Source of the DNA: Tabrizicola oligotrophica
GTDB taxonomy: Bacteria > Pseudomonadota > Alphaproteobacteria > Rhodobacterales > Rhodobacteraceae
Direction: 5' to 3'
Assembly: GCF_011008935.1 (NCBI RefSeq)
Contig: NZ_JAAIVJ010000003.1
Location: forward strand, 372,001-436,000
DNA length: 64,000 nt
The notes beneath the pieces are model-generated. The model searched no databases, was not told where the DNA came from, and worked only from the letters and a program-made list of their open reading frames with translations. Shown here in pieces: positions 16,134-64,000 of this stretch (its first letter is position 1; each line of letters opens with the position of its first letter). A program made the position numbers and the translations under genes.

Positions 16134-16738
16134 CCTGCTGCTTCGGGGATACCCTGATTCTCGCGACCCACAATGAGGGTAAGGTCGAAGAGATGCGCGC
16201 CTTGCTGGCGTCGCGCGGGATTGCCGTGAAGTCCGCCGCTGATTTTGGCGTCGAGGCCCCCGAAGAGACAGAAACGACATTCGTCGGAAATGCGAGACTC
16301 AAGGCCCACCATGTCGCCAGCCAGACCGGGCTTCCGGCGCTTGCAGATGATTCCGGCATGGAGGTGGAGGCGCTTGGCGGTGCGCCCGGGGTTTTCACCG
16401 CGGATTGGGCGGAAACCTCGGCTGGGCGCGACTTCCTTCACGCGATGACGAAGACCTGGGATCTGCTCAAGGCAACGGCAGGAGGCCCGCCCTACAGAGC
16501 TCGGTTCTGCTGCACGCTTGTTCTTGCATTTCCTGATGGCCGCGATGAGGTGTTTGAGGCGCATGTCGATGGCGATCTGGTCTGGCCGCTGAGAGGCGAG
16601 CTGGGTCACGGCTATGATCCGATGTTTGTGCCCGAAGGACAGAGCCGGACCTTTGCGGAGATGAGCGCCGCGGAGAAGAACGCGATCAGCCACAGGGCGC
16701 GGGCCTTTGAGCAGTTTGCCGCGAAATGTTTCACGTGA
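16130..16738 (+). CDS. rdgB: dITP/XTP pyrophosphatase RdgB (HAM1 family)
   Basis: RdgB removes non-canonical purine nucleotides (dITP, XTP) from the pool. The 202-residue protein has the substrate-binding [16 protein letters not shown] near the N-terminus, [52 protein letters not shown] and the end [14 protein letters not shown]. The likely start is a TTG overlapping the rph stop. Unusually, the last codons and the TGA stop lie inside a perfect parS palindrome (16727-16742). Confidence 0.94.
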
Positions 16739-16742
16739 AACA
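16727..16742. other. parS centromere site 1
   Basis: TGTTTCACGTGAAACA is the perfect 16-bp parS palindrome bound by ParB in most bacteria. It covers the rdgB stop codon and lies 1.2 kb from parB. Confidence 0.93.
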
Positions 16743-17945: not shown

Positions 17946-18860
17946 TCAGAGGCGCTTGAGGCTTGCATCCATGGCGGCGGCCGAAAGCGCGCTGCAGAGC
18001 AGATCCAGCTGGTCGAGTGATCGATAGGCGAGGGTCATCTTGCCACCCCCGGAATGATCATGATCGATACGAACCCCCATGCCCAGCCCGGCAGCGAGGT
18101 CATTCTCCAGGGCCCGGGTGTCCGCATCCTTATCCTCGGGCGCGCGCTTGCGCCTGGGCGCCAGCCCCTCCAGCCCCGCCTTTCGAACCAGATCTTCCGT
18201 CTCGCGAACGGAAAGCCCTTTGCCGACAACCTTCAGCGCCAGCTCCCCGGCGTTCGGCGCGGTGACAAGCGCCCGCGCATGGCCCGCCGACAGTTTGCCC
18301 GTCGCAACCATAGACTGAACGTCGTCCGGCAGGTTCAAAAGCCTGAGAATGTTTGCAATATGGCTTCGGCTTCTTGAAAGCGCCTCGGCCAGCTTTTCCT
18401 GGGTGTGGCCAAATCGATCCATCAACTGACGATACGCCAGCGCCTCCTCAATGGAGTTCAGCTCGGCGCGCTGGATGTTCTCGATGATCGCGATCTCCAG
18501 CACTTCAGAATCCGAGAATTCCCGCAGGACGGCCGGAACGGCGTGCAATTGCGCGATCTGCGCTGCCCGCCAACGCCGCTCTCCTGCGACAATCTCATAT
18601 TTTCCAGAGTCAGCGATCTGACGCACGATCAGGGGCTGAATGATGCCCTTCTGCCGGATCGAATCGGCAAGTTCCTTTAGCGCTGCGGGCTCAAAAGTTC
18701 GACGCGGCTGGTTCGGATTTGGAACGATCTCTTCGATCGGCAGCAAGAGGTCCGGCCGCCTCGCAGATGCCGACGGCGCAGCACCGTTGGTCAGATTGAT
18801 GTCCGCCATCAACGCAGACAACCCGCGCCCGAGGCCCCGACGTTCCGACTTCTTTTCCAT
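17946..18860 (-). CDS. parB: Chromosome partitioning protein ParB
   Basis: ParB is a CTP-dependent clamp that loads at parS and spreads to form the segregation complex. The 304-residue protein starts with a basic RRGLGRGLSALM segment, the region that contacts ParA. The CTP-binding N domain has NPNQPRRTF and GERRWRAAQIA. The parS-binding helix-turn-helix includes FGHTQEKLAEALSRSRSHIANILRLLNLP, and a C-terminal dimerisation domain closes the protein. It follows parA by 16 bases. Two perfect parS sites lie within 3.4 kb on either side. Confidence 0.97.
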   Translation of the reverse strand: MEKKSERRGLGRGLSALMADINLTNGAAPSASARRPDLLLPIEEIVPNPNQPRRTFEPAALKELADSIRQKGIIQPLIVRQIADSGKYEIVAGERRWRAAQIAQLHAVPAVLREFSDSEVLEIAIIENIQRAELNSIEEALAYRQLMDRFGHTQEKLAEALSRSRSHIANILRLLNLPDDVQSMVATGKLSAGHARALVTAPNAGELALKVVGKGLSVRETEDLVRKAGLEGLAPRRKRAPEDKDADTRALENDLAAGLGMGVRIDHDHSGGGKMTLAYRSLDQLDLLCSALSAAAMDASLKRL

Positions 18861-18876: not shown

Positions 18877-19683
18877 TCAGCTTCTCAGGGGGTGCCGCGC
18901 CAAGATCTCTGCCGCAAGCGAACGGTAAGCCTCGGCGCCCTTCGATGTCGTGTCATAGCTCAAGACCGGCTGGGCAAAGGACGGCGCCTCGCTGACCCGA
19001 ACATTTCGCGGAATCATTGTCTTGAACACCAGATCACCCAGCGCTTCCCGCGCGTCTGCTTCCACCTGTTGCGCCAGCCGATTGCGGGTGTCGTGCATCG
19101 TCAATAGCACGCCTTCGATCCGAAGCGCAGGATTTGCCGCTTGCCGCACCTCACGGATGGTCAACATGAGCTGTGAAAGCCCCTCGAGCGCGAAGAACTC
19201 TGTCTGCAGAGGCACCAGGACGGAGTGACTGGCGACCAGCCCGTTCACCGTCAAGAGATTGAGTGACGGGGGGCAATCGATGAGAATGTAGTCGAAACCG
19301 AACTCCGACAGGTCCGGCTGACGAAGCGCGTCGTGAAGCAGGAAGCTCCTTTTCTCGCGCGAAACCAGTTGAATATCCGCCGATGACAGATCGGACGAGG
19401 CCGGGCACAGCATCAGGCCTTCGATGGCCGTCGGCTGAACGACACGGCCAATCGCCGCCTCTTCAACCAGAAGGTCATAAGTCGAAACGATTCTCTGTGC
19501 GGGAGCGATCCCCAGCCCGGTCGAAGCGTTTCCCTGCGGATCAAGGTCAACAACAAGCACACGCCCGCCCGCCTCGACGAGCGCGGCCGCCAGATTGATG
19601 GCCGTCGTGGTTTTGCCCACGCCGCCCTTCTGATTTACCACAGCGAGAATTCGGGTCGAATTTTCACCCAGAAGATCAGCCAC
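18877..19683 (-). CDS. parA: Chromosome partitioning ATPase ParA
   Basis: ParA drives ParB-parS movement by ATP-dependent binding to the nucleoid. The 268-residue protein has the deviant Walker A motif NQKGGVGKTTTAINLAAAL, VLVVDLDPQGNASTGLG, the Walker B-like DYILIDCPPSLNLLTVN, and LLTMHDTRNRLAQQV. It overlaps rsmG upstream by 8 bases. The order mnmE-mnmG-rsmG-parA-parB is the ancestral origin-proximal arrangement. Confidence 0.97.
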   Translation of the reverse strand: MADLLGENSTRILAVVNQKGGVGKTTTAINLAAALVEAGGRVLVVDLDPQGNASTGLGIAPAQRIVSTYDLLVEEAAIGRVVQPTAIEGLMLCPASSDLSSADIQLVSREKRSFLLHDALRQPDLSEFGFDYILIDCPPSLNLLTVNGLVASHSVLVPLQTEFFALEGLSQLMLTIREVRQAANPALRIEGVLLTMHDTRNRLAQQVEADAREALGDLVFKTMIPRNVRVSEAPSFAQPVLSYDTTSKGAEAYRSLAAEILARHPLRS

Positions 19684-20311: not shown

Positions 20312-22179
20312 TGCCGGGCGGACCGTTTGGATTTCCGGAGGTGCGCCAGAATCAAGGCCAGCGCCGCCGGCGTCATGCCTTCGATCTTGCCCGCCTGCGA
20401 CAGTGTTTCCGGTCGCCGAAGCTGAAGCTTGATGGCAAGCTCGGCAGACAGACCAGGCATGCCTTTATAAGTGAAGTCCTCAGGGATCAGAATGTTCTCG
20501 TCCTTCTGCATCGCCTCGACATCGTGTCGCTGCCGGTCAAGATACTGCTGATAAAGCGCGTCGTTCTCCAGTTGCGTCCGAATTTTCGGGTCCAGATCAT
20601 CAACCCTGGGATCAAGCTGAGCAATCTGCTCTCTCGTGACACCGGGCATGGAGAGAAGTTTCCACAAACTGCGCTTTCCGCTGTCGAGATTGACCGCAAT
20701 GCCGTGGGCATTCAGCTGCTTGGAACTGTGAAGGCTTTCCTCCATAAGCGCCCTCCCCGCGCTGAGCGCTGACCGCTTTCTCTCAAAAGCCGCCGCCCGC
20801 TCAGGCCTGACGCAGCCGATCTGGAGGCCCAGCGGCGTGAGGCGTTGATCGGCATTGTCAGCACGGAGGGTCAACCGAAACTCGGCGCGCGAGGTGAACA
20901 TCCGGTAAGGCTCGGTGACGCCGCGATGGATAAGGTCATCAATCAGGACACCGATATAGCTTTCTGACCTGCCAAAGAGGATCTTTTCCTTTCCGAGAAC
21001 CATGGCCGCCGCATTAAGACCGGCAACCAGGCCCTGGGCGGCCGCCTCTTCATATCCGGTGGTCCCATTGATCTGACCCGCGAAGAAGAGCCCGTCCACG
21101 CTTTGGGTCATCAAGGTCTGGCCAAGACCACGCGGATCAAAGAAATCGTACTCGATCGCATAGGCCGGCTGCAGGATCGCCACCTGCTCGAGGCCGACGA
21201 TTGATCGAACATAGGCCTCCTGAACGCTGACTGGCAGAGAGGAAGAAATGCCGTTCGGATAGATGGTATGATCGTCAAGCCCTTCAGGCTCAAGGAAGAC
21301 CTGATGCGAGCTCTTGTCGGCAAAGCGCACGACCTTGTCTTCGATCGACGGGCAGTAGCGCGGCCCGACACCCTCAATAAAGCCGCCATACATCGCAGAA
21401 AGGTGGAGATGGTCTCGCACGATGTCGTGCGTCTTTTCGTTCGTGTGGGTAATCCCACAAGTGATCTGGCGAACGACGGGCCCGATGCTCATGAACGAAA
21501 ACATTGACGGATCGTCGTCGCCGTCCTGACGGTCAGTCCGGCTCCAGTCGATTGTCCGGCCATCCAGCCTTGGCGGCGTTCCGGTCTTGAGCCGACCGCC
21601 CCTGATGCCAATCTCGGCAAGCTGTGCGGCAAGACGCAAGGACGGCGCATCGCCCATCCGACCAGCGGGGGTTCGGGCGTCGCCGATATGGATCAGGCCA
21701 TTCAAAAAAGTTCCCGCCGTAAGGATCGCCGCGCCGCAGGAAATGACCTCACCATTGGCGAGCCCCACGCCCCCGAGGCGGCCCGCGGAAATTTTCAGGT
21801 CGGTGACTTCTTCTTCAACGACGGTCAGAAGCGGTTCCCGACCGAGCAAATCCTGCACCGCCTTCCGGTAGAGCTTTCGATCCGTCTGTGCCCTGGGCCC
21901 CTGAACAGCAGGGCCCTTTCGCCTGTTCAAAAGCCGAAACTGGATACCCGCAAGGTCCGCACCCTTACCCATCACGCCATCCAGGGCGTCAATCTCGCGA
22001 ACAAGATGGCCTTTGCCCAATCCACCGATGGCCGGATTGCAGGACATCACCCCGATCTTTTCACGATCCAGCGTGATCAAGGCCGTACGCGCACCCATAC
22101 GCGCCGCGGCTGCGGCAGCTTCAGTCCCCGCATGGCCGCCCCCGATGACGATGACATCAAAATGTTTCACGTGAAACAC
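20308..22179 (-). CDS. mnmG: tRNA uridine-5-carboxymethylaminomethyl modification protein MnmG (GidA)
   Basis: MnmG, with MnmE, installs cmnm5 at the wobble uridine of several tRNAs. The protein (about 623 residues) has the FAD motif [57 protein letters not shown], the [10 protein letters not shown] segment and [14 protein letters not shown]. The probable start is the GTG at 22177-22179, giving [14 protein letters not shown]; a TTG 18 bases further upstream is possible. The first residues FHVKH are encoded by a parS palindrome, so the N-terminus doubles as a ParB site. It starts two bases after the mnmE stop. Confidence 0.96.
22163..22178. other. parS centromere site 2, inside the mnmG start
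   Basis: TGTTTCACGTGAAACA, a perfect parS match, lies in the first codons of mnmG and encodes part of FHVKH. It is 3.3 kb from parB and 3.2 kb from the candidate oriC. Confidence 0.93.
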
Positions 22180-25345: not shown

Positions 25346-25731
25346 CTTCGCCTCGCAATCCCTTCTTCTTAATAAAGAAGAAAGAAAAAATATTGATGAT
25401 GATGTAAGCCCTGTGGGTAACGGAATACAACCACAGATCCACGAACTTTTCCCCAGGGAAAAGCCTGTGGACGAAAGTTGACTGAAGTCAAAATGCAATA
25501 AATATGTATTTAAAAACAATGTGTTGATTGGATTTCCTTCCACAGGACGCCTTCTGCACCCTGTGGAAGATCACTCATCACCAGTACCGTGGAACCGTTG
25601 TCCAGATGTGGAGAACGCCCGCCGCGCGTCTTGACAAAACCGGATAAACCGCCCCCTCCTCGACGCCGAGATCGGATCTGCCCCACATTTTCCGGTTTTG
25701 CCCCCGCGCCACCCCGGATTTGTCCACAGCC
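25346..25731. other. oriC: Candidate chromosomal replication origin (oriC)
   Basis: This 386-bp gene-free stretch separates leftward (mnmG-mnmE-rho-hemJ) from rightward (maf-aroE-coaE-dnaQ) genes. It is much more AT-rich than its surroundings, notably at 25371-25400 and 25486-25530. DnaA-box-like 9-mers with one mismatch to TTATCCACA are at 25412-25420 (TGTGGGTAA), 25607-25615 (TGTGGAGAA) and 25720-25728 (TTGTCCACA). Two-mismatch copies are at 25447-25455, 25466-25474, 25562-25570 and 25599-25607. The same flanking gene order surrounds the known origin of Caulobacter crescentus. No GANTC methylation site was found inside the gap. Function is inferred from composition, motifs and synteny. Confidence 0.75.
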
Positions 25732-26331
25732 ATGTCCCAGCCCTTCGTCCTGGCCTCCTCCTCCGCCATCCGGCGCGACCTGCTGCGCAACGCCGGCCTT
25801 GAGGTCAGCACCCAGGCCGCGCGCATCGACGAGGACACCATCCGCCAAAGTCTGGAGGCCGAGGCCGCCAAACCCCGCGATATCGCCGACGCTCTGGCCG
25901 AGATGAAGGCCGCCAAGGTCTCTGCCCGCATGCCCGGCGCTCTCGTTCTGGGCTGCGATCAGGTGCTGGACTTCAAGGGTCAGGTTTTCGCCAAACCCGA
26001 AACCGCCGCCGAGGCTCGCCAACACCTGCTGGCGCTCCGCGGCCAGACCCATTCCCTGCTGTCCGCCGCCGTCCTTTATGAATCCGGCAAGCCGGTCTGG
26101 CGCCATGTCGGTCAGGCCCGTCTGACCATGCGCAGCTTTTCCGACACCTATCTTGACGCCTATCTGACTCGCAATTGGCCCGCGATCGGCCATTCCGTCG
26201 GCGGCTACCAGCTGGAATCCGAGGGCGTCCGGCTATTCGACCGGATCGAGGGCGACTACTTCACAATCCTTGGCCTGCCGCTCCTTCCCCTCTTGTCCTA
26301 CCTCGCCACACGGGGTCTTATTCCCGCATGA
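25732..26331 (+). CDS. maf: Maf-family nucleotide pyrophosphatase
   Basis: Maf proteins hydrolyse modified or canonical nucleoside triphosphates. The 199-residue protein starts [21 protein letters not shown], with the family SxxR motif, then [42 protein letters not shown] and [31 protein letters not shown]. The ATG at 25732 lies three bases after a DnaA-box-like 9-mer. It is the first rightward gene from the candidate origin, and its stop overlaps the aroE start. Confidence 0.93.
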
Positions 26332-42319: not shown

Positions 42320-43308
42320 TTTCTACCTATTTCTGCAAGGATTTCCGGGGTCGGTTCGGGCAAGAGTGCAGCGCAGGCGCGGGCAAGCGGGGTATTGACC
42401 GGATGGGACAGGTTTTGCTGCAACTGACCCCAGACCCGCGGCATCAGACGCAGGTAGCCGGGTTTGCCGGCGACAAGGCAAAGTCGGGTGAAAACGCCCA
42501 GGATGCGCAGGGCCCGTTGGGCGCCGAGCACGGCATAAGCCGCGTCGAAGTCGCGACCTGCCCCGGTTGCGGCCTTGAACCTGTGAATCATCCCGGCCTG
42601 TGTTTCACGTGAAACGTCGCGGCGCGCGTCTTGCAAAAGCGAGACCAGATCATAACCTGGCTGCCCCATCTGGGCGAGCTGGAAGTCCAGAATGCCGACC
42701 CGTCCGATCCCGGCGCGGTCCGGGAGCCAAAGCAGGTTCTCGGCGTGGTAATCGCGCAGGATCATCACCCGCGGGCCATCGGCATGAGAGGAAATCAGAT
42801 CCTCCAGAACCGCAAGAAATCCGGCGCGGTCTCCGGCGTCGCCCGTCACCGCCTGGCGATACCAGTCAAGGGCAAAACAGGCTGCCTCGGCCCAGTCCGC
42901 CGCGGAAAGATCGGGCAGTCGGCCAAGTGCCGGTTGCGACTGGAGCCTGAGAAGCGCATCGGTCGCGGCCGCATAAAGCGGCAATTCCCGCCCGGGCTCG
43001 ACCTCGATCAAGCGGGCAAATACGCCATCGCCGAAATCCTCCAGCAGCAGGAACCCCCGCGTCAGATCCTGCGCGAGGCAGCGCGGGGCTGACAGGCCAA
43101 GCTCCAGAAGATGCCCGGCAATTCGCAGGAAGGCCGCAGGGTCGTCGCCTTTGCCGGGGGGAGCGTCCATCAGCACCGCAGTCTTGCCATCCAGCGTCAG
43201 GCGATCATAGCTGCGGTCCGAAGCGTCGCCCGCCAGAAACCGGCGATCGGCGAGTCCCCAGCCGGCCCGAGCCAGAAAGGCCGTGGAAAGACTGTCCCGC
43301 TCAGCCAT
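42304..43308 (-). CDS. amgK: Anomeric MurNAc/GlcNAc kinase (AmgK-like phosphotransferase)
   Basis: The 334-residue APH-fold kinase has GDASDRSYDRL near the N-terminus (nucleotide loop), FLLLEDFGDGVFARL, the catalytic VMILRDYHAENLLW with the base Asp, and VGILDFQLAQMGQPGYDLVSLL with the metal Asp. AmgK phosphorylates MurNAc at the anomeric carbon for MurU. The ATG at 43306-43308 overlaps the tsaE stop by eight bases. It contains the parS-like site 42601-42616, which encodes DVSRET. Confidence 0.85.
   Translation of the reverse strand: MAERDSLSTAFLARAGWGLADRRFLAGDASDRSYDRLTLDGKTAVLMDAPPGKGDDPAAFLRIAGHLLELGLSAPRCLAQDLTRGFLLLEDFGDGVFARLIEVEPGRELPLYAAATDALLRLQSQPALGRLPDLSAADWAEAACFALDWYRQAVTGDAGDRAGFLAVLEDLISSHADGPRVMILRDYHAENLLWLPDRAGIGRVGILDFQLAQMGQPGYDLVSLLQDARRDVSRETQAGMIHRFKAATGAGRDFDAAYAVLGAQRALRILGVFTRLCLVAGKPGYLRLMPRVWGQLQQNLSHPVNTPLARACAALLPEPTPEILAEIGRKCPSR
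42601..42616. other. parS-like site 3 (one mismatch), inside amgK
   Basis: TGTTTCACGTGAAACG matches the 16-bp parS consensus at 15 positions, the last base being G. It is about 17 kb from the candidate origin on the side away from parAB. Confidence 0.75.
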
Positions 43309-60073: not shown

Positions 60074-60149
60074 GCCGGTGTAGCTCAGCTGGTAGAGCAC
60101 GTCATTCGTAATGATGGGGTCGGGGGTTCGAGTCCCTTCACCGGCACCA
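60074..60149 (+). tRNA. tRNA-Thr(CGU)
   Basis: The 76-base gene has a perfect acceptor stem (GCCGGTG/CACCGGC, then A and an encoded CCA). It also has the D-arm TAGCTCAGCTGGTAGAGC, an anticodon loop with CGT between CATT and AATG, and the T-arm GGGGGTTCGAGTCCCTT. The anticodon CGU reads ACG threonine codons. It marks the junction between conserved chromosome and the glycosyltransferase/IS region. Confidence 0.95.
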
Positions 60150-63503: not shown

Positions 63504-63526
63504 TGAATCGCCCCTAGTTTCCTAGA
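63504..63526. repeat. Outer inverted-repeat end of an IS3-family element
   Basis: TGAATCGCCCCTAGTTTCC at 63504-63522 is a typical IS3-group terminal sequence (TGAACCGCCCC-type). It overlaps the end of the transposase fragment. Confidence 0.65.
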
Positions 63527-63851
63527 CGCCTCGCAGTTTCAGTTTTTGCTGCTGTTCGAAGGCGATCGGTGACAGCATGCCGTTCCTAACGTGTTTGCGC
63601 TGCGGGTTGTAGAAGAACTCGATGTAGTCGAACACGTCCTGCCGTGCCTCTTCGCGGTTTTTGTATTTCTTTCGCCGGATGCGTTCGCGTTTGAGCAGGT
63701 TGAAGAAGCTCTCCACGACTGCATTGTCCCAGCAGTTCCCGCGGCGGCTCATGCTGGGAGCCAGATTGTGCTGCTCGAGGAATTCTTGCCACTCATAGCC
63801 GGTGAACTGGGACCCTTGGTCAGAATGCACGTAGACCTTGGTCTTTGGTTT
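63522..63851 (-). pseudogene. IS3-family transposase OrfB, C-terminal fragment
   Basis: The minus-strand frame encodes the C-terminal part of an rve integrase: KVYVHSDQGSQFTGYEWQEFLEQHNLAPSMSRRGNCWDNAVVESFFNLLKRERI (DDE residues: Asp of HSDQGSQF and the Glu of VVESFF) and DYIEFFYNPQRKHVRNGMLSPIAFE. The reading frame runs on to 63899 only as non-homologous sequence, because the element is interrupted at about 63851 by the end of another IS. The first catalytic Asp is missing from this fragment. Confidence 0.85.
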
Positions 63852-64000
63852 TGACCTGCCCCCCGGAAGTTCCCTCGCTGTGATGTAGAGTCTGCCCAAC
63901 CTGAAGGAGCAGACGACATGAGGAAAAGCCGTTTCACCGAAGCGCAGATTATCGGGATGATCAAAGAGCAGGAGGCAGGCTTGCCGACGGCAGAGCTGTG
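63852..64000 (+). mobile_element. Left end of a second IS3-family element
   Basis: A new terminal sequence starting TGACCTGCCCCCCGGAAG at 63852 is followed 66 bases later by an IS3 OrfA gene. This places a second insertion inside the first element's transposase gene. The right end is outside the window. Confidence 0.7.
63918..64000 (+). CDS. IS3-family transposase OrfA (partial, right window edge)
   Basis: From the ATG at 63918 the frame reads MRKSRFTEAQIIGMIKEQEAG, then LPTAEL, the helix-turn-helix start of many IS3-group OrfA proteins. GAAGGAG lies upstream. The rest of the gene is beyond the window. Confidence 0.85.
   Translation, partial: MRKSRFTEAQIIGMIKEQEAGLPTAEL

Follow-up and report, generated by a model that had tools for sequence, protein, structure and literature searches.

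The 386-bp segment between hemJ and maf (25346..25731) is almost certainly the site at which this Rhodobacteraceae bacterium initiates chromosome replication (oriC). Coordinates refer to the window, the 64-kb stretch of DNA analyzed here, which comprises bases 372001–436000 of contig C3 (436,546 bp) in a 3.85-Mb draft genome of 62 contigs. A first-pass annotation had proposed a chromosome origin in this gap, and the proposal is supported by a cluster of DnaA boxes, the lowest duplex stability in the window, the placement of parS sites, the conservation of the gap, and GC skew and KOPS polarity in relatives. The finding fixes the origin of the draft genome. Apart from a short conserved triplet array (below), such an origin is ordinary for the family, since a maf-adjacent oriC has already been published: its conservation in Rhodobacteraceae was stated in 2016 from DoriC (PMC4793288), and oriC was assigned in 101 strains by Ori-Finder (PMC6699656). 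As in these described origins (Ketogulonicigenium vulgare, DoriC; PMC4793288, PMC6699656), a segment of similar size carries a DnaA-box cluster, lies directly beside maf (start 25732) and near parAB, and is far from dnaA; no essential difference was found. Cereibacter sphaeroides and Paracoccus species have published marker-frequency profiles (PMC13342612), but the peaks could not be matched to the hemJ–maf gap.

DnaA boxes and duplex stability

The gap extends from the start of the leftward hemJ (UPF0093/PF03653; 24881..25345, minus strand) to the ATG of the rightward maf (PF02545; 25732..26331, plus strand), and its re-measured size and flanks agree with the first-pass annotation. Its AT content is 50.5%, versus roughly 35–41% in the surroundings. 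No RNA families were found in the gap, and a megablast search of the region against plasmids returned no match.

DnaA boxes were scored as mismatches to TTATCCACA. Three candidates carry one mismatch: TTACCCACA (25412..25420, minus strand), which faces the AT-rich tract and is conserved at this position; TTCTCCACA (25607..25615, minus strand); and TTGTCCACA (25720..25728, plus strand), which ends three bases before the maf ATG. A further four box-like sequences carry two mismatches, namely TTTTCCCCA (25447..25455, plus strand, where several relatives also have a plus-strand box), TCGTCCACA (25466..25474, minus strand), TCTTCCACA (25562..25570, minus strand), and TTGTCCAGA (25598..25606, plus strand). 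This recount of three and four reproduces the earlier tally of three and at least four, as well as the earlier placement of one box three bases ahead of maf. Across 245 kb of the same genome, the background density was 0.037 boxes per kb at ≤1 mismatch and 1.07 per kb at ≤2 mismatches, and only scan windows overlapping the gap contained three boxes at the stricter threshold or seven at the looser one. The pattern TTNYCCACA is not enriched genome-wide (98 sites versus 105 for the reversed control), and the hemJ–maf gap is the only place in the whole genome where three such sites fall less than 400 bp apart.

An in-frame TTG of maf overlaps the last box (TTG TCC ACA GCC ATG, 25720–25731). Initiation at this TTG would make the box part of the coding sequence; maf more likely starts with the ATG at 25732.

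As in DnaA-dependent bacterial origins generally, the boxes are clustered in a noncoding segment beside an AT-rich element that should melt easily. In a nearest-neighbor scan of the 64-kb window, stability reached its minimum, for 30-bp and 50-bp stretches alike, at 25357..25407, the proposed site of first melting (DUE). A second AT-rich tract (25485..25535) is the third least stable 50-bp stretch in the window. A putative IHF site, AATCAACACATTG (25517..25529, minus strand), is the one match to WATCAANNNNTTR; matches to this pattern number 14 in the gaps of 86 relatives, versus 2.2 in shuffled sequences.

The gap resembles the Caulobacter crescentus origin (Cori; PMC1914354) in its gene neighborhood, AT-rich tract, DnaA boxes, and IHF-like site. 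Unlike Cori, it is not flanked by hemE and the DUF299 gene, and it contains neither GANTC nor the CtrA site TTAA-N7-TTAA that would mark CtrA control of the Caulobacter type; CtrA sites number only 5 in the gaps of 86 relatives. The first-pass annotation had also reported the lack of GANTC, and the observation itself stands. As a signal it was rejected: 24 of 86 relatives' gaps lack the motif versus about 14 expected by shuffling, which is near chance and makes its absence here uninformative.

A conserved triplet array beside the first box

An array of G[A/T]T triplets, GATGATGATG (25395..25404, plus strand), is located between the AT-rich tract and the first DnaA box, from which it is separated by 8 nt following three GAT triplets. 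The corresponding motif GATG[AT]TG occurs on the plus strand near the hemJ side in 58 of 86 dereplicated gaps, versus 2.1 in shuffles, and on the opposite strand in a single gap of the 86; these counts overstate independence because related sequences share ancestry. Of 63 arrays, 51 lie 14, 17, 20, 26, or 29 nt from the best box, a spacing that varies in steps of three, and tandem DnaA boxes are present in 27 of the 63 array-bearing relatives. The array is also found in three family genomes in which rho replaces hemJ (L186, L189, and L190) and is therefore not part of hemJ.

The position of the array invites comparison with the basal unwinding system of Bacillus subtilis and other bacteria (PMC6669920, PMC8287927). 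Both have a box facing an AT-rich tract across a short, GC-containing spacer, and in both a trinucleotide-periodic element occupies the place where DnaA-trios sit. A published search rule for trios (at least three NAN triplets ≤16 bp from a DnaA box with ≤2 mismatches; PMC8287927) does retrieve GATGATGAT at 25395–25403, with an 8-nt spacer to the one-mismatch box at 25412–25420, although this rule is loose. The trio consensus is 3′-[G/A]A[T/A]-5′ with a conserved middle A, as in 3′-GAT-5′ (PMC6669920, PMC8287927). In contrast, the triplets here run 5′-G[A/T]T-3′ toward the box, which in trio polarity gives 3′-TAG-5′, and relatives often have T in place of the middle A. Polarity and the unretained middle A rule out GATGATGATG as a canonical DnaA-trio. 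We tentatively suggest, as a possibility we consider less probable than its negation, that the array is a Rhodobacteraceae-specific version of the trio, on which DnaA would land in single-stranded DNA by another triplet code, held in triplet register with the box. A literature search did not find a description of the array, which does not prove novelty; the main texts of PMC4793288 and PMC6699656 describe neither it nor the graded loss of flanking genes. The conserved array offers a testable element for the opening of alphaproteobacterial origins by DnaA.

Conservation of the gap and turnover of flanking genes

In a hemJ comparison with the genome collection, Rhodobacteraceae MAGs come out closest, followed by Thioclava and Defluviimonas. 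Among 97 entries with hemJ as well as maf, one of them the window itself, the gap measures 352–478 bp in 95; in the other two it is 1.2 kb and contains DUF299. Each of the 95 short gaps carries 3–12 boxes at ≤2 mismatches, three lack any at ≤1 mismatch, and in 71 a plus-strand box lies no more than 45 bp from maf. When 16 divergent gaps were searched with no motif assumed, the top enriched 7-mer was CTGTGGA (26 occurrences versus 0.7 expected).

Origins of Caulobacter and Rickettsia lie between hemE and COG1806/DUF299 (PMC1914354), in agreement with the first-pass description of the C. crescentus locus. That annotation had reported both genes missing here. Neither flanks the gap, and DUF299 (PF03618) is indeed absent across the whole draft genome; hemE, however, is present on another contig (C6:68746-69765) and has moved rather than disappeared. 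Sampling of about 61 family genomes detected PF03618 in 5, versus 20 of 40 other alphaproteobacteria. The order hemE–gap–DUF299 characterizes the outgroups and, within the family, G007 and G073; hemJ–gap–DUF299 is found in G004, G018, and G076; hemE–gap–maf in G020; and hemJ–gap–maf here, in G074, and in the majority of the family. Six further genomes (G005, G012, G014, G066, G068, and G071) have the order rho–gap–maf. These six (L185–L190) have no usual hemJ at the origin and only a distant UPF0093 relative elsewhere, which suggests loss or replacement of hemJ. In nearly all of the genomes listed, the densest DnaA-box window falls in the gap or at its edge, G020 being an exception.

For this family, an origin between hemJ and maf that lacks hemE and DUF299 as neighbors is the rule and not a special feature of this genome. 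The simplest inference, drawn without a species tree, is that the origin stayed put while neighboring genes relocated or disappeared singly. Since the origin remains in place as its neighbors change, hemE and DUF299 are unsafe as origin markers in this family; safe markers in Rhodobacteraceae are maf, parS, and the box cluster.

The same rearrangements bear on whether the gap is only a divergent hemJ/maf promoter, with DnaA acting as a transcription factor and the origin elsewhere. The gap does part two divergent genes, and DnaA boxes occur at DnaA-regulated promoters too. However, the cluster and the gap length persist where hemE or rho stands in place of hemJ, or DUF299 precedes maf; parS sites surround the gap; and closed relatives switch skew and KOPS polarity there (below). 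We regard a promoter-only role as very improbable.

parS sites and replication polarity

The 3.85-Mb draft has four parS-like sites (0–2 mismatches to TGTTTCACGTGAAACA), every one of them on this contig and no more than 47 kb from the gap: they map to 388.7, 394.2, 414.6, and 350.8 kb of the contig, and the gap to 397.3–397.7 kb. In the genome scan, the sites at 22163..22178 and 16727..16742 match TGTTTCACGTGAAACA perfectly, and one with a single mismatch lies to the right of the gap at 42601..42616. The palindrome at 22163–22178 lies within the beginning of the mnmG ORF and thus doubles as coding sequence for the residues FHVKH; the site at 16727–16742 is close to the start of a hemW-like gene. 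A parA-like gene (18877..19683, minus strand), followed by a parB-like gene (17946–18860), lies 6–8 kb left of the gap; both were identified by reading translations alone. The dnaA gene is on a separate contig with no DnaA boxes nearby, which rules out an origin at dnaA.

Within the draft itself, 9 of 11 left-arm samples show a weakly negative GC skew, as expected to the left of an origin. KOPS are unpolarized on the contig, whose right arm extends only 39 kb beyond the gap, too short for a skew reading. In closed relatives the switch coincides with the orthologous gap (G016 and G074) or falls near it (G006), at a resolution of about 0.1–0.2 Mb because sampled stretches of 12–20 kb each were used: the skew/KOPS optimum for the origin is 1.10–1.19 Mb in G016 (orthologous gap at 1.181 Mb), 20–128 kb in G074 (gap at about 124 kb), and 3.22–3.38 Mb in G006, where the gap, at 3.478 Mb, is some 0.1 Mb away. 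The G006 gap sits in a stretch of near-zero skew.

The weak skew and KOPS signal of this genome would also fit a relic of the ancestral origin, the functional origin having moved elsewhere in this lineage, as would the boxes, which are individually weaker than those of some congeners that carry perfect TTATCCACA at the same places. However, no second cluster of three close TTNYCCACA sites exists in the genome, dnaA is without boxes, the parS sites are located around the gap, and the box cluster, AT-rich tract, and triplet array have all been retained. A displaced origin is thus, in our estimation, even less credible than the promoter reading.

Taking the hemJ–maf gap as the active oriC, the observed sequence, conservation, skew, and parS placement are consistent with the following scheme. 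DnaA would bind the box cluster, and the minus-strand box at 25412, facing the AT-rich tract, may guide it to melt approximately 25357–25407, where the helicase would be loaded. The mid-gap IHF-like site and the maf-side boxes could help to fold the complex. Replication would then proceed bidirectionally, with ParB predicted to load at parS sites 3–17 kb away. Over evolutionary time, the flanks would have changed stepwise, through relocation of hemE and loss of DUF299, around an origin segment that kept its place.

Toward the end of the contig, a tRNA-Thr gene (60074–60149) is followed by a lower-GC stretch reaching 64000 (54–57% versus about 64%), which contains two glycosyltransferase-like ORFs and a transposase-like ORF (63522–63899) near the contig end; 60074–64000 looks like a genomic island beside tRNA-Thr.
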